Source: Deltaproteobacteria bacterium (lineage in GTDB: Bacteria > Desulfobacterota > Binatia > Binatales > Binataceae). From it: DNA of 64,000 nucleotides. The notes below the pieces were generated by a model, which ran no database searches, was not told the DNA's origin, and worked only from the letters and a program-made list of their open reading frames with translations. Shown here one piece after another: positions 6,398 through 19,770 of the stretch. Numbering within the stretch: the first letter of the stretch is position 1; every line of letters begins with the position of its first letter. The position numbers and the translations under genes were made by a program. The DNA lies in the NCBI GenBank assembly GCA_021799495.1, contig JAJZAI010000005.1, positions 1-64,000 of the forward strand, read 5' to 3'.

Positions 6398-7213
6398 TCA
6401 GTACCAGACGCGCGTGCCGAAGACGAAACGGGGATCGACCACAAGACCGCCTTCGTTACGGGTGAAGTCTGCGGTTTCGCCGAATGCGCCGGTGTACGCG
6501 AAGCCGAGGTAGGGCGCGAACTTGCGGCTGATTTCGTAACGGATACGCAGGCCGGCGTCGAGTTCGGAAAAGCCGGTTCCGACCGCGCGCGCGGGATCGG
6601 CCTTGGTATAGAAATTCATCTCGGCCTCGGGCTGCGCGATCAGGCGATTGGTGATCAGGATGTCGTAGCTGCCGACCACGCGCGCGGCGAAGTGGCCGGC
6701 GTTGCGTGCGTAAAGCGTCGCCTCGAAATCGAAGAACTCCGGCGCAAGTCCCTCTATTCCCAGCGCGCCCCAATAGCGCGGCGGGCCGGAATCGCCGTCG
6801 TAACGCAAGCCCGCCTGCCAGTCGAAATAGCGCAGGAACGGAATCGGCCGATCGTAGAGCATCTCATGGATGCCGTCGGTCATGCGGCCGCGCTCGAAAA
6901 ATCCTTCGGACTTGAACCAGAGCTTGTTCCAATCCGTGCCGATCCATCCCTGCCCGTCCCATCGCAGCTCCGTATCCGGGCCGTTGGTGCGTCCTTCAAG
7001 CTGGTCGAAGAGGATGTGCGCGATAATCGGATCGTCCATCACCGGCGGATTCCACGAGCTAGCCGGCTCCGTGGCGCTTTGGGGATTCGGCGGCGTGGTT
7101 TGCGCGCGCGCGGCGCCGCCCGCGAACGCGATCGCGGCGAGCAGGATCGCGGAGCATGCGAATGCGGATACACGGAGCCGAGCCTGCGCGCGCCCGCTGG
7201 CGCGGCGCCTCAC
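6398..7213 (-). CDS. copB: Copper resistance protein B (outer membrane)
   Basis: A CopB-family outer-membrane beta-barrel believed to bind or pass copper in the CopAB periplasmic resistance system. The 271-residue product has a signal peptide (ACSAILLAAIAFAGGAARAQ) and then the family pattern: MDDPIIAHILFDQLEGR, WDGQGWIGTDWNKLWFKSEG, YFDWQAGLRYD, and a barrel ending in an aromatic residue (VFGTRVWY), as expected for an outer-membrane protein. The GTG start at 7213 overlaps the copA stop (GTGA), showing tight coupling. The Met/His-rich N-terminal segment of some CopB proteins is missing here; the Met-rich segment is in CopA instead. Confidence 0.9.
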   Translation of the reverse strand: MRRRASGRAQARLRVSAFACSAILLAAIAFAGGAARAQTTPPNPQSATEPASSWNPPVMDDPIIAHILFDQLEGRTNGPDTELRWDGQGWIGTDWNKLWFKSEGFFERGRMTDGIHEMLYDRPIPFLRYFDWQAGLRYDGDSGPPRYWGALGIEGLAPEFFDFEATLYARNAGHFAARVVGSYDILITNRLIAQPEAEMNFYTKADPARAVGTGFSELDAGLRIRYEISRKFAPYLGFAYTGAFGETADFTRNEGGLVVDPRFVFGTRVWY

Positions 7214-9153
7214 GCTACGATCACCTCGCGGAACATCCCGGCCTCCATGTGATACAGCAGATGGCAGTGATAGGCCCATCGGCCGGGAGTGTCGGCGCTG
7301 ACGAGGTAACTCAGCCGTTCGCCGGGCTTGACGTTGATCGTGTGTTTGTAGGGCCTGCGATCGCCGTGGCCGTTTTCGAGTTCGCTCCAGAGTCCGTGGA
7401 GATGAATCGGATGCGCCATCATGGTGTCGTTGACGAGGATAATCCGCACGCGTTCGCCCAACCTGAGTCTGAGCGGTTCGGCCTCGCTGAATTTATGGCC
7501 GTCGAAGCCCCAGACGAAGCGTTGCATGTTGCCGGTCAGATGGAGTTCGATTTCGCGTTCGGGCGGACGCGGGTCGGCGCCGCGATAGCGGGCGCGCAAG
7601 TCGGCATAGGTGAGCACGCGGCGGCCGTTGTCGTTCAGCCCGACCCCCGGATCGCCGAGGCGTTCGGAAGGCGATTGCGCCACGTTGTCGACTTCCGGTC
7701 CGACCCGCAGCGCGATCGGTTCCAGCGGCGGCAGCGTCGGCGTCGTGATTGCGAGCGCGGTCGCCAATGGAGTGTGCGGGTTGGGTTGGGGAAACGGCGG
7801 CGCGCCGAAATCGCGGCCGGCGCTGGTTTGAGATTCGCTTCGCGGCGCCGCGGGAGTTCGCATCGAGCCGGCTTCGCTTCCCGGCGATTCGTCCATGTCC
7901 ATCCCCGGCATGTCGGTCATACCGGGCATATGCATCGGTGGCGCGGCGGCGGGCGCGGACGCGGTATGACCCTCCATCTTCATGCCGGGCGTTGAATTCA
8001 TCGCGCCCATTCCCATATCGACCATGGTCAATTGCGGCCGCGGATCCATCGGCGGGAGCGGCGCGGTCATGCCCGGCGCGGGCGCCAGCGTGCCGCGCGC
8101 ATAACCGGTGCGGTCTTCGGACTGGACGAAAATGGCGTAGGCGCGGCCGGCTTGCGGCGTGACGACCACGTCGTAGGTTTCGGCGACCGAGATGCGGAAT
8201 TCGTCGATCGTCACCGGTTCAAGGTCGTTGCCGTCAGCTTGCACCACCGTCATCGGCAGTCCGGGAATCCGCACGTCGAAGATCGACATCGAGGAGCCGT
8301 TGATGAAACGCAGCCGCACGCGCTCGCCCGGGTTGAAAAGTCCGGTCCAGTTGGCCGCGGGCGTCGCGCCATTCATCAGATAGGTGTAGGTGGCGCCGCT
8401 CACGTCGAGAATGTCGGTGGGGCTCATGTTCATCGCGCCCCATCTGAGCCGTTCGGCGAGAGTTGAGCGAAGTCCGGTTTTCCTGACGTCGGAAATAAAG
8501 GTTCCCACCGTCCGCTGATGAAAATTGTAGTAGTCGCTTTGCTGCTTGAGGTTGGCGAAGATCGTTTCAGGATTTTCGTCGGTCCAATCCGAAAGCAGGA
8601 CGACGTAATCGCGATCGTACTGAACCGGGTCGGCGCCGGATGGCTCGATGATCAACGGTCCGTAATGGCCGGTCTGTTCCTGAAAGCGGCTGTGGCTGTG
8701 ATACCAGTACGTGCCGCGCAGGAGAACGGGAAAGCGATAGACGAAGGTTTCGCCCGGCGCGATGCCGGGGAAGCTGAGGCCGGGCACGCCGTCCATCGCG
8801 GCGGGCACGCGCACGCCGTGCCAATGGATCGAGGTGGGCGCGCGCAAATGGTTGGTGACGGCGATCGTGACCGTGTCGCCTTCGCGCCAATGGAGCCGCG
8901 GACCGGGCACGGAGCCGTTCACGGCGGTCGCGATGCGCGCGCGGCCAGTATAATTTACGATGACTTCCTCAAGCGCAAGCGCAAAATGATTTCCGCGCAG
9001 GACTTCCTGCCGGCGCAGGGAAGCGTGCGCCAAAGCCGGCCATGAACGAAGATCGAAACCTGCGACGACGCCCGCCGCGACCAGTCCCTGCACGAAGCGG
9101 CGGCGCGTGATGCCGTCTCGCTTGAACGATAGCGCGTCGTCTTTATAACGCAT
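7210..9153 (-). CDS. copA: CopA-type multicopper oxidase, copper resistance
   Basis: A periplasmic multicopper oxidase, likely oxidising Cu(I). The 647-residue product has a twin-arginine signal (ITRRRFVQGL) and the copper-ligand motifs in order: IHWHG, WYHSHS, HPIHLHG and the C-terminal HCHLLYHMEAGM. Between them, about residues 390-440, is a Met-rich stretch (PGMKMEGH, PPMHMPGMTDMPGMDMDE) typical of PcoA/CopA copper binding. The start is ATG at 9153, giving a normal twin-arginine leader; upstream codons lack signal character. It is coupled to copB. No copper sensor gene (CopRS or CueR) is seen nearby. Confidence 0.94.
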   Translation of the reverse strand: MRYKDDALSFKRDGITRRRFVQGLVAAGVVAGFDLRSWPALAHASLRRQEVLRGNHFALALEEVIVNYTGRARIATAVNGSVPGPRLHWREGDTVTIAVTNHLRAPTSIHWHGVRVPAAMDGVPGLSFPGIAPGETFVYRFPVLLRGTYWYHSHSRFQEQTGHYGPLIIEPSGADPVQYDRDYVVLLSDWTDENPETIFANLKQQSDYYNFHQRTVGTFISDVRKTGLRSTLAERLRWGAMNMSPTDILDVSGATYTYLMNGATPAANWTGLFNPGERVRLRFINGSSMSIFDVRIPGLPMTVVQADGNDLEPVTIDEFRISVAETYDVVVTPQAGRAYAIFVQSEDRTGYARGTLAPAPGMTAPLPPMDPRPQLTMVDMGMGAMNSTPGMKMEGHTASAPAAAPPMHMPGMTDMPGMDMDESPGSEAGSMRTPAAPRSESQTSAGRDFGAPPFPQPNPHTPLATALAITTPTLPPLEPIALRVGPEVDNVAQSPSERLGDPGVGLNDNGRRVLTYADLRARYRGADPRPPEREIELHLTGNMQRFVWGFDGHKFSEAEPLRLRLGERVRIILVNDTMMAHPIHLHGLWSELENGHGDRRPYKHTINVKPGERLSYLVSADTPGRWAYHCHLLYHMEAGMFREVIVA

Positions 9154-9326
9154 CGATTGTTGATTCGCGCGAATGAGGCTTGGACAAGATTGGCTCGATG
9201 GGTCGCAGGCGGAGACGTTGCTCAGGAATGAATTATTGGCCTGCCGGCGCCGCATGACGCAAGCCGACGCGCCGCCCGATCGCGGCGATTGCCAACGAAC
9301 CGGGCGTCCAATAAGGTGTTAGCTCA

Positions 9327-9348: not shown

Positions 9349-9449
9349 ATCTGTTTAATTGCACTTTGCCGCTGCGCGGGGACGTTGCGAAGCGATTCCG
9401 GCCGGAGCCGGCGCGAACGACCTGGGGCAAGAAACGAAAGCGATCCGCC

Positions 9450-10664
9450 ATGATTTCGCGTGAGGCCGAGCTCGTCGTAAACCTGGTTTCAGCGTACGTG
9501 CGCGGCGCGGACGGCGAGAGCGTCGCGGCGATGGTAAAGCCGGAAATCGATTGGAACGAGGTCGAACGGATCGCGACGTGGCATGCGGTCGTGCCGATTC
9601 TGTATCAGGTTCTGGCCGCGCGCCCCGATTGCGCGCCGGCCGAGCAGCTCGCGCGGTGGCATGGGACTGTCCGTGCGAACCGCGTGCGCAACGCCTACCT
9701 GGAGAACGCCGTCGTCCGAATCGCGAAGGCGCTGGCCGACCGGGGGGTGACGGCGCTCGCGTTCAAGGGGCCCGTGCTCGCGGCGGCGGCGTACGGCGAC
9801 CCCGGGCTGCGCGAGTTCATCGATCTCGACATCCTCGTGCGGCCCTCCGACCTTGGGCCGTGCCGCGCGACGCTCGCGGCGCTGGGTTACCGATCGGAAT
9901 ATTCCGGCCTGAGCGATGAAGGCAAAGCTTTTTTCCAGTCATATCAGGAGACCTTCAACAGCGACGATTGGCTCGTGCCGCTGGATGTTCACTCGCGCCT
10001 GAATCCGCGCTATTTCGCGTATGCGCCGGAAGGCGAAGCGCTGTTCCGGAGGGCGGTCGAATTCGAGCTTCGGAGCGGCGGTGTGAAGACGCTTTCAAAC
10101 ACCGACCTGGTGATTCATCTGTGCGCGCACGGCGCCAAGCATGGATGGGACTCGCTGGGATGGATACTGGATATAGCGGCGTTCGTGCGGCGGAATCCGG
10201 AGATCGACTGGCGGTCGATGCTGAACGACGCGGCCGCGGCCGGCGGCCGGCGTTTGCTGTTGCTGGGAATTTATTTGATCCGCGATTTGTTGAAGGCGCC
10301 GATTCCGGAGGAAGTGATGGCGCTCGCGTTGGGCGACAGAGTAGTCACGCGCATCGCCGCCGGCGTCAAGCGGGGCCTGTTCAGCAATATCGGGCGGCGC
10401 GGCGGCGTTATCGGCGAATGGTCGGCGCCCGCCCGCGCGATCGAATCGACGCGCGGCCGGATTCGGTATGTCGCCGCGCGGGCGTTGGGACCGACGATTG
10501 AGGATTGGAAGTCGCTGCCGTTGCCGCGCCCGCTCTATCCGCTCTATTACGCCGTTCATCCTTTGCGCATGGCGTTCACGCAGGCGCCGCGGATATTCAG
10601 ATCGCTGGTCGGGATTTCCACGCACGCCGCCAAACCGCGCGATCCGCGCCTCGCCGAGGCCTGA
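9450..10664 (+). CDS. Nucleotidyltransferase family protein (PF14907 type)
   Basis: A 404-residue member of the nucleotidyltransferase-fold family that commonly accompanies lasso-peptide and other RiPP or polysaccharide loci. The signature is at residues 104-130: AFKGPVLAAAAYGDPGLREF, then IDLDILVRP with Asp125 and Asp127 as likely metal ligands, followed by LAALGYRSE. A His-rich segment (HLCAHGAKHGWDSLGWILDIA) is also typical. The specific reaction in RiPP clusters is not established for most members; some are thought to modify the peptide or a kinase product. ATG 9450 is used because the 28 codons upstream look non-coding. The next gene, the exporter, starts 32 bases later. Confidence 0.8.
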   Translation: MISREAELVVNLVSAYVRGADGESVAAMVKPEIDWNEVERIATWHAVVPILYQVLAARPDCAPAEQLARWHGTVRANRVRNAYLENAVVRIAKALADRGVTALAFKGPVLAAAAYGDPGLREFIDLDILVRPSDLGPCRATLAALGYRSEYSGLSDEGKAFFQSYQETFNSDDWLVPLDVHSRLNPRYFAYAPEGEALFRRAVEFELRSGGVKTLSNTDLVIHLCAHGAKHGWDSLGWILDIAAFVRRNPEIDWRSMLNDAAAAGGRRLLLLGIYLIRDLLKAPIPEEVMALALGDRVVTRIAAGVKRGLFSNIGRRGGVIGEWSAPARAIESTRGRIRYVAARALGPTIEDWKSLPLPRPLYPLYYAVHPLRMAFTQAPRIFRSLVGISTHAAKPRDPRLAEA

Positions 10665-10696
10665 CGGAACGCCACCGCTTCGCGAGCATCGCCGCG

Positions 10697-12610
10697 ATGG
10701 AGAAACTATCCGCAGTCGAGCATCGCGTTATGGAGAGCCTCGATCAGGCGGGACCGCTTGAGTCCGCGCAACTCCGCGGCGGGCGGACCGGCGACGGCTT
10801 CGCGGAGCCGCGCGGCGGTTCGCTGGCGGCGCTGGCCGATCTGGTTCGCACGATCGCGCGGATCGCGCCGTGGCGGTTCGCGTGGACGATCGCGTTGATC
10901 ACGCTGTTTTCGCTTACCGAAGGCGCCGGCGTGGCGATGCTTTTCCCGACGCTCCAGTTGGCCGGATACAACCTGGAAAGCCAGGGCAAGGTTGGCCATT
11001 ACGCGCGGATGGTGGGGAACGCGTTCACGGCCGCCGGACTGCATCCGACCCTGCCGCTGATGCTCAGTTTGTATATTTTGGTGATTGCGATGCGATCGCT
11101 GATCGATCGCTTCCGCAATGTATCCGACGCGCAGGTGCATCGGCGCCTCGAGGACGTGATGCGCCGCCGTCTGTATAAAGCGATCAGCGACGCGAATTGG
11201 CAATTCATCAGCCGCAGCCGGTTGTCCGATTTCAATCACGCGCTGACCGCGGAAATGGAGCGAATCACGACCGCGGCCGCTTTTCTTACGGCGCTTGCCG
11301 CCAACCTCGTGATGGGCGCGCTTTACGTGAGCGTCGCGCTGGCGCTGTCCGCGCCGATGACGCTGACGGTGATCCTGCTGGGCGGGCTGATGACCGTGGC
11401 GCTGTCGCGCGGAACGCGCAGAATCGAGGAACTGGGCGCGACCTTGTCCAGACAGACGGGCCGCATGTATGCGGCGGCCGGCGATCATTTGCAGGGACTG
11501 AAGACCGCGAAAACCTACGACGCCGTGACGCGCGATTTCGAGCTTTTTTCCGAGGTAAGCCGGCAAATCGCGGATACATATATAAACGTGGAGCGGGAAC
11601 AGGCGACGATGAGCGCGTGGTTCGAGTTAGGATCGGCCATGGCGCTCGGGGCCGTTCTTTTCGCCGCGCTGGAGCTGTTCGCGGCGCCGCCCGCGATGAT
11701 TCTGATCCTGATTCTGCTCTTCGCGCGGCTGATGCCCCGTTTCCAGTCGAGCCATCAGTATTACCGCACGATCGTTCATGCGCTGCCCTCTTTCACCAAC
11801 GTATGCGCGATGGAGCGGCGTTGCCGCGCGGCCGCGGAAGCGCCCGGGCCGCCGGGCCATAAGCTGCCGCTCGCGAATCAAATCCGATTGAATCGAGTGT
11901 CGTTCATATACGGAGCCGGCCTGAAACCGGCGCTTTCGGCGGTTGACATGACTATTCCGGCCAGCCGGATCACGGCGATAGTCGGTCCTTCAGGCGCTGG
12001 CAAAAGCACGATCGCGGATCTCGTGATGGGATTGCTGGAACCAACACAGGGCGAAATCACGGTGGACGGCGTGCGGCTCGATGCAGCCGCGCGGCGCGGA
12101 TGGCGGTCGCAACTTGGATATGTCGGTCCAGAAACCGCGCTATTTAATTTAAGCATTCGCGACAACCTGCTCTGGGCGCGGCCTGGCGCAAGCGAGTCCG
12201 AGTTAAAGGGAGCGCTCAGGGCTTCACGCGCCGATGAATTTGTGCTGGCGCTGCCGGATGGGTTGGATACGATCATAGGCGACCGCGGAGCGCTGCTGTC
12301 GCAAGGCGAGCGCCAGCGTCTCGCGATTGCGCGCGCATTATTGCGAAATCCGGCGCTGCTGGTTCTCGACGAAGCCACCAACAATCTCGATTTTCAAAAC
12401 GAGGAACAAGTGCTCGGCGGAATTGCCGGCTTCGCCTCCGGAATGACCGTTTTGATTATCGCTCACCGGTTATCGACAATTCGATGGGCCGATCTGATTT
12501 ATGTAATCGAAGATGGCAAAGTCGCTGAATCGGGACGCTGGGCGGATTTGGCGTCGAATGGCGGCGGAAGGTTTCACGCGCTTTGCGTCGCTCAACGGCA
12601 GGTCGCATGA
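10697..12610 (+). CDS. ABC exporter, fused permease and ATPase (lasso D-type)
   Basis: A 637-residue half-transporter likely to export the mature peptide. After a roughly 55-residue polar N-terminus come about six membrane segments (60-340) and then the nucleotide-binding domain from about 395: Walker A GPSGAGKST, signature LSQGERQRLAIARAL, Walker B LLVLDEATNNLD and switch His in IAHRLSTI. All catalytic motifs look intact. There is no C39 peptidase domain at the N-terminus, so it should not cleave a leader. ATG 10697 follows the nucleotidyltransferase stop by 32 bases; the longer frame that overlaps that gene is rejected. Confidence 0.9.
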   Translation: MEKLSAVEHRVMESLDQAGPLESAQLRGGRTGDGFAEPRGGSLAALADLVRTIARIAPWRFAWTIALITLFSLTEGAGVAMLFPTLQLAGYNLESQGKVGHYARMVGNAFTAAGLHPTLPLMLSLYILVIAMRSLIDRFRNVSDAQVHRRLEDVMRRRLYKAISDANWQFISRSRLSDFNHALTAEMERITTAAAFLTALAANLVMGALYVSVALALSAPMTLTVILLGGLMTVALSRGTRRIEELGATLSRQTGRMYAAAGDHLQGLKTAKTYDAVTRDFELFSEVSRQIADTYINVEREQATMSAWFELGSAMALGAVLFAALELFAAPPAMILILILLFARLMPRFQSSHQYYRTIVHALPSFTNVCAMERRCRAAAEAPGPPGHKLPLANQIRLNRVSFIYGAGLKPALSAVDMTIPASRITAIVGPSGAGKSTIADLVMGLLEPTQGEITVDGVRLDAAARRGWRSQLGYVGPETALFNLSIRDNLLWARPGASESELKGALRASRADEFVLALPDGLDTIIGDRGALLSQGERQRLAIARALLRNPALLVLDEATNNLDFQNEEQVLGGIAGFASGMTVLIIAHRLSTIRWADLIYVIEDGKVAESGRWADLASNGGGRFHALCVAQRQVA

Positions 12611-12670: not shown

Positions 12671-13639
12671 ATGAGAAAGAACTTCGCACGCAATGAACTG
12701 CTCGCATCGCTTCATCTTGACCGCGAGGAATTCAGCGTTCGCGCTACGCAGGCGATGGACCCGGAATACTGGCGATCCCTGTCTCCCGGAATTCCAGTCG
12801 ATTCATTGAACTATGACTTTCACGAACCCGCGTTCAGCCATGATTTGGTCGAGGAGTCTCTGCGCAGTCTGAGAGACCGTGGCTATTTCCACGCCGGCCC
12901 GCTTATTTCGGAACCGATCGTGAAGCGGATGCGAGGGTGCGTGGAAGCGGTGAAAAACGCGGGTTGGCCGCCTGTTTTCGCCTTCGCGTACGATCCGTTC
13001 TGGGCCGCGGCGCGCGCGTCATTCATATGCGAATTTCTCTCGGCCCTGCTGGGGCCCGGCTTCGACATAATAATGTCGCGGGTTTGGTGTTATTATATCC
13101 GCCCTGTCCGCGGCGCCGGCGGATGGGCGCCGCATGCGGACGCATATCGCGATCATCGGAATCGCATTACTCTCTGGATACCGCTCACCGGCGCGACGCT
13201 TGACAATGGCTGCATGTATGTAATCCCGAGAGACTTCATTGACGGCGATCGGACGCCGGCGGAAGACCGCTTGCGCGCGTCGTCGCTGCCGAGCGAGTAT
13301 TGCCTGCGGCTGCTGCATAGCTGCCGCGCGTTGCCGGCGGCCGCGGGATCGATTCTCGGATGGGATCCCCGGACCATTCACTGGGGTTCGAAATGCCATG
13401 CGCCGGGCGAGCCGCGCATCAGCATAGGATGCGAGTTCGTGAGCAGGGGCGTAACGCCGAAGCCCCACCAAATCGGCGAACTTGCGCCGGGCGATCGCGG
13501 CGCGCCGCTGCCCGGCTTCATGCGGAGGATTCGCAACGTCGCCCTGTCGATTCGAATCCATCACGCCCGCGACCTTAAATCGGCGCGGTTTGCGGATTTA
13601 GCTGAGGAATTGATAAAGCAAACCGCCGATATCGCCTGA
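12671..13639 (+). CDS. PhyH-family Fe(II)/2-oxoglutarate dioxygenase 1
   Basis: Predicted non-haem iron dioxygenase of the phytanoyl-CoA dioxygenase family, probably hydroxylating the peptide or a bound intermediate. The metal triad is visible: His155 and Asp157 in PHADAYRD and His237 in TIHWGS, with Arg249 placed to bind 2-oxoglutarate. The segment ITLWIPLTGATLDNGCMYVIP is typical of PhyH. It is a clear paralogue of the gene at 17163-18149, sharing the same domain order and motifs such as RGYFHA, GWPPVFA and ATLDNGC. It ends the plus-strand module of nucleotidyltransferase and exporter, and converges with the cyclase gene. Confidence 0.85.
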   Translation: MRKNFARNELLASLHLDREEFSVRATQAMDPEYWRSLSPGIPVDSLNYDFHEPAFSHDLVEESLRSLRDRGYFHAGPLISEPIVKRMRGCVEAVKNAGWPPVFAFAYDPFWAAARASFICEFLSALLGPGFDIIMSRVWCYYIRPVRGAGGWAPHADAYRDHRNRITLWIPLTGATLDNGCMYVIPRDFIDGDRTPAEDRLRASSLPSEYCLRLLHSCRALPAAAGSILGWDPRTIHWGSKCHAPGEPRISIGCEFVSRGVTPKPHQIGELAPGDRGAPLPGFMRRIRNVALSIRIHHARDLKSARFADLAEELIKQTADIA

Positions 13640-13687: not shown

Positions 13688-15568
13688 TCAGCCGAGAATC
13701 GCGTTGTGCCAAATCTCCATCGCGATCGAGAGCCAGGTCGGCACGCCATAGCCGATCGTCCCGCGTTTGTATTCGTTGATTAATTTGTCTGTGGCGCTCC
13801 TGAGCCTGCCGGCATTAACCCATCCGCGGCGCGCGATCGCGAGCGCGCGCCAGTCAACCTGATTCCGATTGAATTCAACCGAATCGAGAAATGGCTCGGC
13901 GAAATGTCCTTTGGTGGCGCGGTTGCGAATACGCTCCGGCAATATTCCGCGCATCGCATTGCGCACGATAATCCGATTCAGGCCCAGCCGCGTCCGCTGG
14001 TCTTCCGGTATAGCCCAGGCGAATTCGACGATACGCCGATCGGAAAGCGGATGGCGGCCTTCGAGTCCTGACCCGGATAGATAACGCTCGAACCAATCCA
14101 TCGTGACATGCCACTCGCCGCCGTGAAAAAAATTGTAATAGTCGCGGTGGGCGAGCGTGGTTCGCGGAGCGGGCGGAGGCTGCGGATGGAGCCGATCTTC
14201 CAACGAGATCCGCCGCGCGAAATCTGGCTCGATCCAGTGGGGATATGAACGCGCCCGGCCGGTCAATTCGCGCCTCAGTTTATTGACCCAGCCCGGCAGC
14301 AGGGGCAAGAGGGCGTCGGCGATGAAGACTCTTGCCAGTCCGATATTGACATCAGGATCGGCCGGACCTCTCAATTCCCGCAGCAGCGCCGCCAGCCGTC
14401 CGCGTCTGAGCAGGTCCGCGAGACGATACGCGGATGCGCTGAGCCATTCGTCGCCGCCCTCGCCGGTGAGAATCACCCGGCATCCATTCGTGGCGGCCAC
14501 GCGGCGAAGTTCCATGCCGCATGACGTGCTTGGATATTCGGGGAAATCGCGATGTTTCCTCACCGATTCCGCCAGGTCGATTCGATCCGGCGCCAACGGC
14601 TCGAACAGATTTGTTTTGATTCCGTAGTATTCCGCCACATTCCGAATATAACTGGATTCGTCCCATGGTTTGCCGGGAAAGACTATCGAATAGGTTCCGA
14701 AATCAAGATGCGGCAACTCGCCGCCGCGCGCCATCGCCAGCGTCGCACAGACGATCGAGGAGGAATCGATCCCGCCGCTCAATTCCGCGGCGACCGGTCC
14801 GACGGCGCGCAACCGGCATCTCAATGATTCCTTGAACAGCGCCAGGAAATTTTCGGCGTACTCGTCGTCGCTCCGAAACCGGATTTCCTTGTTGAAATTG
14901 AGATCGAAGAAGCGGCGGGAAACGGTTGTCTCGCGGCCGACCCGCAGAATGTGAGCGGGCCACAGACGCATGATCGAGGCGTACAGGGTTTCGTCGCAAC
15001 TCGGGATGCGATTTGACAGGATTTCGCCGATCATTCCTTCATTCAACCGGCCGTCGAACCCCGTGTACGCCAATACTCCGGCGATCTCGGAGGCGCAGAC
15101 GAATACTCTGCCATCGTCGAAGTAATACAACGGCTTGATCCCAATCGCGTCGCGTGCGCACAGCATGGTTTGCGCGCGCGCGTCCCAGAGCGCCAGCGAA
15201 AAATCCCCGAGCAGTTTCTCGACGCACGCTTCGCCCCAGCGCTGGTAGCTTCGCAGCACCGTCTCGGCGTCCGTGGCGTCGCGCGGGCGCAGGCTTTGTT
15301 GGTCGAGCAGCGATCGCAGTTCCGCGCCGTTGTCGATCCGCCCATCTAAAATCAGTACGAGATCGCCTGTCTCGTCGCGATGCGGCTGAATTTCCCGCAG
15401 CGATTCGGGCGTGGTGCGAAACATGCGAAGGCCGAGCGCCACGTCGCCATCTTGCCAGATATGGAATCCGTCGGGTCCGCGATGGGCCATCGCGTCGAGC
15501 ATCCTGGCGAACGATTCGGTCGCGACCGGACGCCCGTCGCGATGGAAGACCGCGGCTAATCCGCTCAT
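13688..15568 (-). CDS. Asparagine-synthetase-like cyclase (lasso C-type)
   Basis: A 626-residue homologue of glutamine-dependent asparagine synthetase. The C-terminal synthetase domain has the PP-loop SGGIDSS (264-270) and GEGGDEW (369-375), so ATP-dependent carboxylate activation should work. The N-terminal glutaminase-like domain keeps RGPDG and LDGRIDN, but residue 2 is Ser where amidotransferases need Cys. Ammonia production from glutamine is therefore unlikely, which fits a lasso cyclase that adenylates an Asp/Glu side chain and lets the peptide N-terminus attack. It starts 31 bases after the PqqD gene in the same operon. A variant asparagine synthetase is the less likely alternative. 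Confidence 0.85.
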   Translation of the reverse strand: MSGLAAVFHRDGRPVATESFARMLDAMAHRGPDGFHIWQDGDVALGLRMFRTTPESLREIQPHRDETGDLVLILDGRIDNGAELRSLLDQQSLRPRDATDAETVLRSYQRWGEACVEKLLGDFSLALWDARAQTMLCARDAIGIKPLYYFDDGRVFVCASEIAGVLAYTGFDGRLNEGMIGEILSNRIPSCDETLYASIMRLWPAHILRVGRETTVSRRFFDLNFNKEIRFRSDDEYAENFLALFKESLRCRLRAVGPVAAELSGGIDSSSIVCATLAMARGGELPHLDFGTYSIVFPGKPWDESSYIRNVAEYYGIKTNLFEPLAPDRIDLAESVRKHRDFPEYPSTSCGMELRRVAATNGCRVILTGEGGDEWLSASAYRLADLLRRGRLAALLRELRGPADPDVNIGLARVFIADALLPLLPGWVNKLRRELTGRARSYPHWIEPDFARRISLEDRLHPQPPPAPRTTLAHRDYYNFFHGGEWHVTMDWFERYLSGSGLEGRHPLSDRRIVEFAWAIPEDQRTRLGLNRIIVRNAMRGILPERIRNRATKGHFAEPFLDSVEFNRNQVDWRALAIARRGWVNAGRLRSATDKLINEYKRGTIGYGVPTWLSIAMEIWHNAILG

Positions 15569-15599: not shown

Positions 15600-15878
15600 T
15601 CAGCCGGATTCGCCGGATGTGACGATGAGCATTCCTTTTGCGGCCAGGTCGCTCACCAGCTTGTCGAAGTCATTGCGCAGAACGGCAGGATCGGCGTCAT
15701 CGTACAACGCCGTCAATTCTTCGAGCACTCTGTCTGACGCGCCATGTTCCGCGATCAAGCGCCAGATATCGCTTCCCGCGCCCGAGAATCCAAAATAATG
15801 ATTGGTCGCAAGATCGAGGACTACGATCTCGCCGCCGAGCTCGCGCCAAATTACGTCTTCAGAAATTGCTATCTTCAT
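15600..15878 (-). CDS. PqqD-family RiPP recognition element (lasso B1-type)
   Basis: A 92-residue PqqD-like winged-helix protein that in RiPP pathways binds the leader peptide and presents it to the tailoring enzymes. The fold pattern is clear: VIWRELGGEIVVLDLATNHY, then FSGAGSDIWRLIAEHG, helix VLEELTALYD and RNDFDKLVSDLAAKGMLIV. In lasso systems this part is called B1. Its ATG lies inside the end of the methyltransferase gene (20-base overlap) and the cyclase follows 31 bases later, so all three are co-translated. No B2 protease domain is fused or adjacent. Confidence 0.9.
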   Translation of the reverse strand: MKIAISEDVIWRELGGEIVVLDLATNHYFGFSGAGSDIWRLIAEHGASDRVLEELTALYDDADPAVLRNDFDKLVSDLAAKGMLIVTSGESG

Positions 15879-17013
15879 AGGCGTACGGAACCATCACTTC
15901 GGCGACGAAAGCCGCCGCCGCGGCGGACGATGGAAAAAGCTCCGCGTGTTGGCGGAGCACCTCGTTTTCAATCTCGCGCAGATTCCGGCGGCCATCGCAT
16001 AGCGCGAACACCGTGCGGCGCGCCGCGCCCCAATCGTTCAGCGTGGGCACGAAATCCGGCGCCGCCTTGCGCAGATCTTCGGGGCACAGCAGCATGCCGC
16101 GAAAAGTCGAATGGCTGAAGCGCGCGCGCGGAATCGCGTCATCGCCGATGATTTCGACGGTCCACGAAATCAACGATTCACGCGGAACGATCGTAAGCGC
16201 AACCTCGAAGCGCTCATTGGCGCGCACCGCCGTCCGCGGATCGAGCGGAAGAAAGAAGGCGGGCCGCCGAATCGCTTTTTCCGCAAACGGCGAATTCGTC
16301 ATTCTCGCCGACGGCGACAATTCCGCGTCGAACCATCCCGCTAATCCGTGCAGCGTAGCGTCGCGGGCGAAGGCGGCGCTCGCTTTGCCGGAGATGCGCG
16401 ACTCGGAATCGCGCGCGAGATCCATCGATAAGATGATTTGTGGCGCCGCGATCGCCTGATTCGATCCGAATTTTCTCGCGTAGCCGGTGTTCACCGCCGC
16501 CGCGTAGGCCGGCGTCAAATCGAAACCGGCGCACTGCCGCTTCCAAAACTCGCAGTCCGCCCATATTTCCGGCGCTTCCACGGGCGCGACGCATAAATCG
16601 AAGCGCGCGGGAATAATTTTGCCGCCCGGTTTGAGCAGCCGGCGGCGCGCGTCGCTCAGGAATTCGACGATACCCGCATTGAAGCCAAAGTAGCCAAGCT
16701 GGTCGCATACGACCACGTCGGCTGGTTCGGGCAATGAGACCCGCGTGGAAAAACCCTTGATGCACACGACCCGGTCGGCGAAGCCGTTGGCGGCGAAAAT
16801 TTCCCGCTCCAACTGGGTGAGGCCGGAATTGTCGATGGCATAGACGCGTCTTGCGCCCGCGCGGCAGGCGAGCAATCCAAGAATTCCCGAACCGGAGCCA
16901 AGATCGACGACCACGTCGCCCGGCTTCACGATCTCCGCGATCGCCCGGCTGAACGCCTCAATCCGAGTCGGATCGCTGAGGTATTCGCGATGTTCGTCGA
17001 GTATTTGAAACAA
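15859..17013 (-). CDS. PRMT-like SAM methyltransferase with C-terminal PqqD-like domain
   Basis: A 384-residue protein. Residues 10-60 hold a class I SAM site (VVDLGSGSGILG at 35-46, acidic Asp61 after strand 2) preceded by HREYLSDPTRIEAFSRAI, the arrangement of protein arginine methyltransferases. The PRMT double-Glu loop is altered: CDQLGYFG at 103-110 lacks the first Glu, while Glu117 may be the second. A beta-rich middle follows, and the last 60 residues (RRTVFALCDGRRNLREIENE and beyond) resemble a PqqD/RRE domain. I infer a leader-guided peptide methyltransferase. The start is TTG 17013; no ATG is available and the ribosome site is poor. First gene of the MT-PqqD-cyclase operon. Confidence 0.78.
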   Translation of the reverse strand: MFQILDEHREYLSDPTRIEAFSRAIAEIVKPGDVVVDLGSGSGILGLLACRAGARRVYAIDNSGLTQLEREIFAANGFADRVVCIKGFSTRVSLPEPADVVVCDQLGYFGFNAGIVEFLSDARRRLLKPGGKIIPARFDLCVAPVEAPEIWADCEFWKRQCAGFDLTPAYAAAVNTGYARKFGSNQAIAAPQIILSMDLARDSESRISGKASAAFARDATLHGLAGWFDAELSPSARMTNSPFAEKAIRRPAFFLPLDPRTAVRANERFEVALTIVPRESLISWTVEIIGDDAIPRARFSHSTFRGMLLCPEDLRKAAPDFVPTLNDWGAARRTVFALCDGRRNLREIENEVLRQHAELFPSSAAAAAFVAEVMVPYAYEDSNF

Positions 17014-17162: not shown

Positions 17163-18149
17163 ATGGAACGTGATAGCGCAACGCCGCCGGCCCAAGCCGC
17201 ACGCAAGTTGCTCGCGCGGCTGGATTTAAGCCGCGCCGAAATTGACGCTCGCCTCGCCTTGGCGCTGGACCCCGGTTACTGGAAGTCGCTTTATCCCGCG
17301 TTTTCAGTCGGTGACGAATCCAGCGCGCCGCCGCACGCGGACGCCCTCACCGCATCGCAGTACGAACGGCTGGCGGACAATCTCGCCAGTCGCGGCTATT
17401 TTCACGCCGACTCAGTGCTCGAATCCCTGACGATCGACGCCATGCGCGGCTGCATCGAAACCATCCGAAGCGCCGGATGGCCGCCGGTCTTCGCCTATGT
17501 TTACGATCAGTTTTGGACGATTTGGCGCCTGGCGCCGATCAAGCAGATGGTGAAGGCCGGGCTAGGCGGAGGGTATCGGCTGATTTCGCATCCGTGGTGC
17601 CATTATGTTAGTCCGGTCGTCGGCGCCAGCGGATGGCCGCCGCACGTGGACGGTAATCTTCCGAATCGAATCTCGATTTGGATTCCGCTCACCGACGCCA
17701 CTCTTGACAACGGATGCATCTACGTGGTGCCCGGCGATCAGAATTTCGCCCGCATCGGCGAACTCCGCGAACTGAAATCCGCGACCAATCTTCAATTGAG
17801 GGAATTAATGCAGCGTGGCCGCGCGTTGCCGGCGTCCGCGGGCGCGATCATGGGCTGGTATTTCCGGATTCTGCATTGGGGTTCCGTCGCCAGCGGCGCG
17901 GGCCATCCCCGCATCAGCACCGTGATGGAGTTCATCAAAGCGGAAGAGGCGGCTTTGCCGAGCGAATTGCCGCTTTTTGATCCGGATCGCGAATTGCCGC
18001 CGCTGCTCCAGCGATTGTTCGCGATTGGAAGGTCGATTGATTATTATAAGCGTTTTGAGCTCAGGATGCGGCGTTACGCGGGACTGGGGCGGACCTTGAT
18101 GCGCGCCGGCGATGCGGCCAATCGGAAATCGGCCACAACCGCGACCTAA
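17163..18149 (+). CDS. PhyH-family Fe(II)/2-oxoglutarate dioxygenase 2
   Basis: A 328-residue paralogue of the dioxygenase at 12671-13639. The iron ligands are His161 and Asp163 (PPHVDGN) and His238 (RILHWGS), with Arg250 for 2-oxoglutarate; ISIWIPLTDATLDNGCIYVVP is the family core. The two copies flank the methyltransferase-PqqD-cyclase operon in the same orientation. Keeping two full-length, apparently active paralogues suggests two different hydroxylation sites or substrates. Its 3' end overlaps the convergent kinase gene by 4 bases. Confidence 0.85.
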   Translation: MERDSATPPAQAARKLLARLDLSRAEIDARLALALDPGYWKSLYPAFSVGDESSAPPHADALTASQYERLADNLASRGYFHADSVLESLTIDAMRGCIETIRSAGWPPVFAYVYDQFWTIWRLAPIKQMVKAGLGGGYRLISHPWCHYVSPVVGASGWPPHVDGNLPNRISIWIPLTDATLDNGCIYVVPGDQNFARIGELRELKSATNLQLRELMQRGRALPASAGAIMGWYFRILHWGSVASGAGHPRISTVMEFIKAEEAALPSELPLFDPDRELPPLLQRLFAIGRSIDYYKRFELRMRRYAGLGRTLMRAGDAANRKSATTAT

Positions 18150-19153
18150 TCGCGCAATTCGTCTTCAATCATCTCGCGGACGGCGTCCAGCGCGCGCAGA
18201 TCGTTGGGCAGCCAAAGCCGCTTTATTGGAATATGGTTCGCGGCATATTGAGCAAAATCGAACTCGCGCGCCAATAATCCTGGATCCGTGCTGTCCAGCC
18301 GGATTCCGTAATTGACCAATTCCATACACGCATCGCGCGGCGACAGAGCTTCCATTCGCGGCTTCGCACTCGAAGCCGCGCCGGATGTTTCAATCCGCGA
18401 CAAGAAGAAAATCCGGCTCAACGGATGCGATTGGATGGCCGATCCCCATTTCGGCAGGTCCAGGCGCAAGCGCCGTTTCGTGGTGTAATCCGCCACTGGC
18501 GCGGCGTTTGTCGCGCCAGGTAAAAGCGCCCCTAACGAATCTTCGCGCAACTTGACGTGCGGATGCGACGGCGACGCGATTACGGTCTCGCGGCGCTCAA
18601 GGATCAGGAAGTCGTCGGTCAGAACGGCAAATCCGGCCAACGACAGGCTTGTGGCAAGCGTCGATTTGCCGATTCCGGAATCGCCCGCGAACGCGCACGC
18701 TCCCCGTTCAGTCGCGACCGCCGACGCATGAAGCACGCATTTGCCGCGCAACGTCAGAATCAGGGGCAGGACGTGGTCAACCAGCAAGGCGCGAAGCGTC
18801 AGATCGGACACGTCGTCCGACCGGCTCTGGCAGACGAGCTCCCGGCCGGCGCGATCCACTTCGAAATCGGCCAGACCGTGGTAGCGAAGCAGATACCCGT
18901 TGGCCGTTTTCCCGCGCGCCGCCCACGGCGTTCCGTCAGCCAAGTCCAGGTTGATGAACCAACTCGGCGGCGATGTTTCACGCTTCGCCGCGGCATCCCG
19001 CAGGCGGATCACCAGCGGCTCGCCTCCATCGGGCAACGCTGTAGCGCAAGGCGTGAGCTCCGGAAGCGAGGTGTCGCTTAAAATACTGAGATCGCCGAGC
19101 CGATACGCGTAGCGTGCGCTGCCTGCGAAAACTCCTTTGTGCGGAGAAACCAC
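18146..19153 (-). CDS. HPr-kinase-like protein (lasso peptide kinase type)
   Basis: A 335-residue P-loop protein of the HPr kinase/phosphorylase-like group found in many lasso clusters, where characterised members phosphorylate a C-terminal Ser of the precursor. The ATP site is GDSGIGKST (157-165), preceded by CVLHASAVATERGACAFAG and followed by LTDDFLIL (178-184), the acidic motif. A lineage-specific N-terminal half (about 1-130) precedes it. The start is GTG 19153 without a clear ribosome site, so it may be translated from the precursor transcript, which begins 129 bases upstream on the same strand. Its target is inferred to be Ser48 or Ser52 of the precursor. Confidence 0.82.
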   Translation of the reverse strand: MVSPHKGVFAGSARYAYRLGDLSILSDTSLPELTPCATALPDGGEPLVIRLRDAAAKRETSPPSWFINLDLADGTPWAARGKTANGYLLRYHGLADFEVDRAGRELVCQSRSDDVSDLTLRALLVDHVLPLILTLRGKCVLHASAVATERGACAFAGDSGIGKSTLATSLSLAGFAVLTDDFLILERRETVIASPSHPHVKLREDSLGALLPGATNAAPVADYTTKRRLRLDLPKWGSAIQSHPLSRIFFLSRIETSGAASSAKPRMEALSPRDACMELVNYGIRLDSTDPGLLAREFDFAQYAANHIPIKRLWLPNDLRALDAVREMIEDELRD

Positions 19154-19282: not shown

Positions 19283-19444
19283 TCAGCCGCTTCCCTTCAT
19301 TGACCCATGGTCAGGTAGACTGACCCCTTTTGGAGTGGCTGTAATCTTTGTCACGCTCCCGTAATCGACCAGAGCAGGCGATACGTACGCCTTTTTCTTC
19401 TTGGCAGGCTTCGTCTCGGGTTCTGTGGACGGTTGTTTTCGCAT
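19283..19444 (-). CDS. Lasso-type RiPP precursor peptide
   Basis: A 53-residue peptide below the usual gene-size cut-off. A strong ribosome site (CAGGAG) lies 7 bases before the ATG. After a Lys/Pro/Glu-rich start comes the lasso leader signature YVSPALVDYGSVTKIT (Tyr20, Pro23, Leu25, Gly29), the pattern bound by B1 proteins. If Thr35 is the conserved Thr at -2, the core is TPKGVSLPDHGSMKGSG (37-53), with Asp45 at core position 9, allowing a 9-residue macrolactam. The tail is short, Gly/Ser-rich and without bulky plugs apart from His46, Met49 and Lys50, so a threaded lasso is uncertain. Ser48 and Ser52 are possible kinase targets. Confidence 0.82.
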   Translation of the reverse strand: MRKQPSTEPETKPAKKKKAYVSPALVDYGSVTKITATPKGVSLPDHGSMKGSG

Positions 19445-19571
19445 TGGCCAACTCCTGATTGCTGACTGTTTAGCCCGCTTTAGTCTAATTTGATACTGTT
19501 TATTGCCACTTACGCGAGTTTAACAGCTTGCCAACAACGCCGGGTAGCGCTTCGCCGTTTGGCAGCGTGAA

Positions 19572-19599
19572 CTATTACATCGTTTATTAACCCGGTCAA
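19572..19599 (-). promoter_or_regulatory. Possible promoter of the precursor gene
   Basis: On the minus strand TTGACC (19594-19599) is followed after 16 bases by TAATAG (19572-19577), about 128 bases before the precursor ATG and downstream of tRNA-Leu. The -35 is good, the -10 poor. Confidence 0.3.
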
Positions 19600-19684
19600 G
19601 CCGGAAAAGAGCCTCAACAAGCCAAAGCATTTCCGGCGCTAAATGGCTTATGGAAAGAAACCTTGGCAATCGCCAGCAGAAAAT

Positions 19685-19770
19685 TGGTGCCGAGGGCGGG
19701 ACTTGAACCCGCATGTGGTTGCCCACGGTGGATTTTGAGTCCACTGCGTCTGCCGTTTCGCCACCTCGGC
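19685..19770 (-). tRNA. tRNA-Leu (anticodon CAA)
   Basis: An 86-nt class II tRNA with a long variable arm and CCA encoded in the DNA. The acceptor GCCGAGG pairs with CCTCGGC; the anticodon stem GTGGA/TCCAC encloses CTCAAAA, giving anticodon CAA (reads UUG); the T-arm contains GTTCAAGTC. It marks the upstream side of the RiPP precursor region on the same strand. Confidence 0.95.

Follow-up and report, generated by a model that had tools for sequence, protein, structure and literature searches.

A lasso peptide gene cluster of Binataceae whose leader peptidase is probably encoded elsewhere in the genome

The precursor and its neighbouring genes

The window, i.e., the whole stretch of DNA analysed here (positions 1 to 64,000 of contig JAJZAI010000005.1 from a bacterium of the Binataceae, genome G000), carries an open reading frame of 53 codons at 19283..19444, which runs on the minus strand from an ATG at 19444 to a stop codon ending at 19283 and is translated as MRKQPSTEPETKPAKKKKAYVSPALVDYGSVTKITATPKGVSLPDHGSMKGSG. 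At this length, the frame exceeds the usual minimum of common gene callers. A first-pass annotation had proposed a precursor peptide at this place, and the frame is real, on the minus strand. The ribosome-binding sequence CAGGAG, placed by the same annotation 7 bases ahead of the ATG, is found there and belongs to an upstream stretch at 19445..19626 (minus strand) that is conserved in sister species. The leader comprises residues 1–36 with the motif YVSPALVDYGSVTKIT and Thr35 at position −2, and the predicted core, TPKGVSLPDHGSMKGSG, starts with Thr37 (core 1), places Asp45 at core 9, giving a predicted nine-residue ring from Thr37 to Asp45, and ends in GSG; the motif and the numbering of the three residues agree with the earlier reading. 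Both the YxxPxL leader pattern and the threonine at −2, by which lasso precursors are recognised, are thus found in the same peptide.

The assignment of a lasso-type leader is borne out by profile searches. The NCBIfam models lasso_cyano (5e-5) and lasso_leader_L3 (0.0015) match the peptide, with both scores lying under the curated cut-offs, and a precursor model built without its own genus gives 42.7 bits, compared with 7.9 for the runner-up among 1,432 open reading frames of the window and a maximum of 10.6 over 20 shuffled windows. The frame is kept at 87% and 83% identity in G003 and G006, respectively, the two sister species of the window genome, and their loci match the public records JADBKU01 and JAJXZF01. 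In a comparison of the window with G003, one amino-acid change and four silent changes fall in the first 36 codons (leader dN 0.025, dS 0.22), and six amino-acid changes and one silent change in the 17 core codons. The frame is short, as a frame open by chance might be; such an origin is exceedingly improbable in view of the leave-genus-out score, the conservation, and the predominance of silent substitutions within the leader. The frame almost certainly encodes a genuine lasso-class RiPP precursor.

The remaining genes of the cluster occupy lower coordinates of the window. Briefly, an HprK-related kinase (K; 18146..19153, minus strand) with His, P-loop Lys, and Asp-Asp motifs (LHASA, GDSGIGKS, and TDDFL) is followed by a PhyH-family Fe/2-oxoglutarate oxygenase (oxygenase 2; 17163..18149, plus strand) with an HVD motif and a distal His, a PRMT-fold SAM methyltransferase (15859..17013, minus strand) with a helical C-terminal domain at residues 311–377, and a stand-alone RRE protein of the PqqD family (B1; 15600..15878, minus strand), which matches PqqD in Pfam (1.2e-13) and whose closest solved structure is TbiB1 (3e-7 over residues 4–83). 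The asparagine-synthetase-like lasso cyclase (C; 13688..15568, minus strand) starts with MSGL, lacks Cys2, and has an intact SGGIDSSS ATP motif; it scores 448.7 bits with the lasso model NF033535, below the curated cut-off of 525. Beyond it lie a second PhyH-family Fe/2-oxoglutarate oxygenase (oxygenase 1; 12671..13639, plus strand) with an HAD motif and a distal His, an ABC exporter (D; 10505..12610, plus strand, as the listed frame, the true start of which is probably later), and an NTP_transf_5 protein (N; 9366..10664, plus strand) of a kind known from pseudomycoidin and paeninodin clusters. A multicopper oxidase gene adjoins N at 7210–9255 and is retained next to the cluster in both sister species.

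The gene order of the window is repeated in both sister species. Furthermore, the methyltransferase, the kinase, and the precursor, mostly together with the cyclase, are also clustered in other genera of the family, in Erythrobacteraceae, in Cyanobium, and in a betaproteobacterial MAG. The window cluster is rich in tailoring genes and has no leader peptidase inside it. Several local features accompany these loci. Likeness to both sister species ends at 19622–19626, shortly before a tRNA-Leu gene (19685–19770); the tRNA-Leu region lies on contigs other than that of the cluster in G003 and G006, and the left flank is syntenic. Two Erythrobacter loci (L015 and L018, around 9700–11119) carry a precursor and methyltransferase pair, and no cyclase was found within about 10 kb of it. 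In G015, a methyltransferase cluster with its cyclase split over two contigs (L079 with L033) has apparently two B1 genes, in the order B1-B2-B1′-C-PRMT-A-K.

Ring, tail, and core residues

The check proposed by the first-pass annotation, an alignment of homologues for conservation of the leader residues and variation of the tail, was run on 16 precursors, and both patterns were seen: Tyr20, Pro23, Leu25, and Gly29 are invariant, Thr35 is nearly so, and the tails vary. All 16 have an acidic residue at core 8 or 9 (Asp at core 9 in the window). A motif scan over all loci, further family members included, places an acid at core 7–9 in 29 of 32 matches; among the three exceptions, L023 looks like a chance match, L113 is a parsing slip (Asp at 8 when counted from DLT), and the third, a variant fused to B1, has no such acid. 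A single frame in which a B1 RRE is fused with a lasso-type leader and a core lacking an acid at 8/9 is located at L087:8295-8804 on the minus strand (the same as L116, G013:C32). Two possible precursors in G002 (L115 and L118, on C15 and C6), reading YGKVADLT-K-KPGTRGD... with Asp at core 7, stand far from the lasso cluster of that genome. In addition, lasso-like precursors in methyltransferase clusters of Cyanobium (L011:9549-9968) and Erythrobacter (L014:8621-8977) bear a C-terminal Peptidase_S74 (endosialidase chaperone) domain (Pfam matches of 5e-8 and 2.5e-9, respectively), which suggests a self-cleaving C-terminal follower.

The kinase, the NTP transferase, the RRE, and the MsbA-like exporter of the window cluster constitute the core set of linear polyphosphorylated peptide (LPP) clusters (PMC13381572), and an LPP-like product formed by these proteins with no macrocyclisation was considered. 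In contrast to the LPP systems, the cluster includes a lasso-type macrolactam cyclase in all three sister species (the species of the window included), its precursors have the acid at core 8/9, and no SpI-type peptidase occurs among the cluster genes examined, so that a linear product is very unlikely. The product of the window cluster is very probably a lasso peptide.

Position 1 of the core in the motif scan is Gly, Thr, Ser, Ala, Val, Pro, Lys, or His. A threonine start had been called unusual for a lasso peptide; it is not a single case, as Thr1 is also predicted in further genera of the family (G015, G022, G052, and G041). According to PMC12670498, the position-1 residues of lasso peptides are Gly, Cys, Ser, and Ala, to which Asn has been added, and in the literature searched, no experimentally confirmed Thr1 was found. 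With Thr, Val, Ala, Ser, and Gly predicted at position 1, the family would extend the set of residues known to form the ring. The tail had likewise been described as a Gly/Ser stretch with no bulky plug, a description that overlooks Met49 and Lys/Arg50, which are kept in all three species and could serve as the plug. An unthreaded tail on the same macrolactam, i.e., the branched-cyclic peptide offered as an alternative in the first-pass annotation, would fit a tail that is short and contains no Trp, Phe, or Tyr; nevertheless, the machinery and the ring position match those of lasso relatives, and with the Met49-Lys/Arg50 pair conserved in three species, this structure appears improbable compared with the threaded lasso form.

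The leader peptidase and an orphan B1-B2 pair

No B2 leader peptidase is present in the window cluster. The sole PF13471 protein of the genome is encoded on another contig (C44), directly after a B1 gene of its own, in a stretch flanked by an RND transporter and DegP. The corresponding stretch of G004 has the order RND-B1-B2-C-K-N-D-DegP, with G002 and G005 beginning alike, and that of the window genome and G003 has the order RND-B1-B2-MetE-like-IPPase-DegP. The orphan B2 is 54–70% identical to B2 proteins of the same genus and 32–44% identical to other B2 proteins and retains the catalytic Cys, His, and Asp; dN/dS between the window genome and G003 is about 0.23 for the orphan B1 and about 0.30 for the orphan B2. 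Both genes of the orphan pair are intact and evolve under purifying selection. The possibility that the same-genus lasso cluster had moved into the window was considered and is ruled out by the trees of C, K, and N, in which each window protein falls in a clade apart from that of the same-genus cluster; the window cluster is therefore a second cluster rather than the first one relocated. We infer that the C44 pair is what remains of another lasso cluster, distinct from that of the window, after the loss of its C, K, N, and D genes.

The pairing of a methyltransferase cluster with B2 differs among relatives. Elsewhere in the family, such clusters have their own B1-B2 in G007 and, judged by contig ends, also in G015 and G022, and in G008, B2 is likewise apart from its cyclase. 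G006 has the full cluster, yet no PF13471 protein was found in that genome; since orthologues of the RND and MetE-like proteins were not found there either, the missing B2 may reflect either incomplete assembly or true gene loss. A search of the window genome with P0001 or with the 16-row model found no second lasso precursor, and no precursors adjoining C were found in the same-genus canonical clusters.

The persistence of an intact B1-B2 pair under purifying selection, with the rest of its cluster gone, suggests that its B2 works in trans, and we lean towards the view that the only B2 of the genome serves the window cluster in this manner. A competing explanation is that a general or unrelated peptidase, or non-specific processing, precedes cyclisation and the orphan pair serves something else. 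The absence of B2 from the window cluster and the failure to detect it in G006, which retains the cluster, agree with this explanation, as does a paper cited in PMC9266682 that concerns, by its title, pseudomycoidin synthesis without a leader peptidase; on that precedent, as far as a title conveys it, B2 might be dispensable. However, the pair is intact under purifying selection with every other gene of the ancestral cluster lost, and the 16-row model found no further lasso precursor in the genome that the pair could serve, so that processing by another peptidase is the less favoured and an unlikely explanation. The cluster is probably a lasso cluster with its leader peptidase encoded elsewhere. 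Cluster-based genome mining expects B2 next to C, and if B2 is supplied from a remnant cluster, clusters of this kind would be scored as broken and overlooked.

A pathway can be proposed from the sequences with B2 acting in trans. B1 would bind the YxxPxL leader, in keeping with the observed motif and the homology to TbiB1; the leader would be cut after Ala36 by the sole B2 of the genome; and C would link the amino group of Thr37 to the side chain of Asp45, yielding a nine-residue macrolactam. The eight-residue tail would be threaded through the ring and probably held in place by Met49 and Lys50 as plugs, given the conservation of these positions. The kinase and the NTP_transf_5 protein would modify a side chain, both PhyH oxygenases would hydroxylate the peptide, the PRMT-fold enzyme would methylate a group other than arginine, and the ABC transporter would export the product. 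The C44 pair may have been retained because the window cluster requires its B2.

Tailoring enzymes and comparison with known systems

The AlphaFold2 model of the methyltransferase has a pLDDT of 90.8, and its core superposes on PRMT1 with a Z score of 33.9 (298 residues, rmsd 2.3); furthermore, the family profile matches PRMT6 with an E value of about 5e-54. The double-E and THW loops have roles in PRMTs. In the window enzyme aligned to PRMT6, the first Glu of the double-E loop is replaced by Asp and the second by Ala, and THW is replaced by IRR. The clamp residues vary among other lasso-cluster methyltransferases, and three relatives near which no lasso cyclase was found (L012, L013, and L019) retain both Glu residues and a T/SHW loop. 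Because the arginine-clamp residues are lost and the precursor cores contain no conserved Arg, the target of the enzyme is likely a group other than arginine. The window core has no Arg at all, so that any methylation of this core would fall on another residue. A C-terminal PqqD-like RRE on the methyltransferase was considered and rejected (33% probability over 39 columns against B1 profiles; no call by Pfam). In the literature searched, nothing relevant was found on lasso clusters with PRMT or PhyH proteins, and lasso clusters from several phyla include a PRMT-fold enzyme without the arginine clamp, pointing to a lasso modification yet to be described. That a non-arginine target of the PRMT-fold enzyme, a Thr-start ring, and dependence of leader removal on a B1-B2 pair left over from a decayed second lasso cluster at a distant locus should all hold together is a tentative and somewhat doubtful proposition.

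The H, K, D, and D residues named for PadeK-type kinases (PMC9266682) are present in K (LHASA, GKS, and TDD). None of the 16 aligned precursors has a C-terminal Ser (that of the window ends in GSG), and the rule of paeninodin, in which the kinase targets the C-terminal Ser, is thus not transferable. Both PhyH proteins have the HxD motif and the distal His, a combination that in the PhyH family denotes hydroxylases rather than halogenases. Among the loci examined, oxygenase 2 is confined to the window cluster and its two sister species.

The cluster resembles several characterised systems in part. Like TbiB1 (PDB 5v1u and 5v1v), the window B1 is a stand-alone RRE, although its gene lies near the cyclase with no adjoining B2 gene. 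Metanodin (PMC12670498) is likewise metagenomic and has an unusual first ring residue, Asn, whereas the residue predicted at position 1 here is Thr. SAM methyltransferases also occur in the lasso clusters of LasF/StspM and of the PIMT-like LihM, in contrast to which the window enzyme has a PRMT fold (Z about 34). Canucin is made by a cluster with an Fe/2-oxoglutarate oxygenase, the hydroxylase CanE, whereas two PhyH-family enzymes are present here. The paeninodin and pseudomycoidin clusters (PadeK, PsmK, and PsmN) have in common with the window cluster a stand-alone B1, a cyclase, an HprK-like kinase, an NTP_transf_5 protein, and an ABC exporter; the window cluster differs from them in precursors without a C-terminal Ser, in a B2 located outside the cluster, and in the additional PRMT-fold methyltransferase and two PhyH oxygenases.
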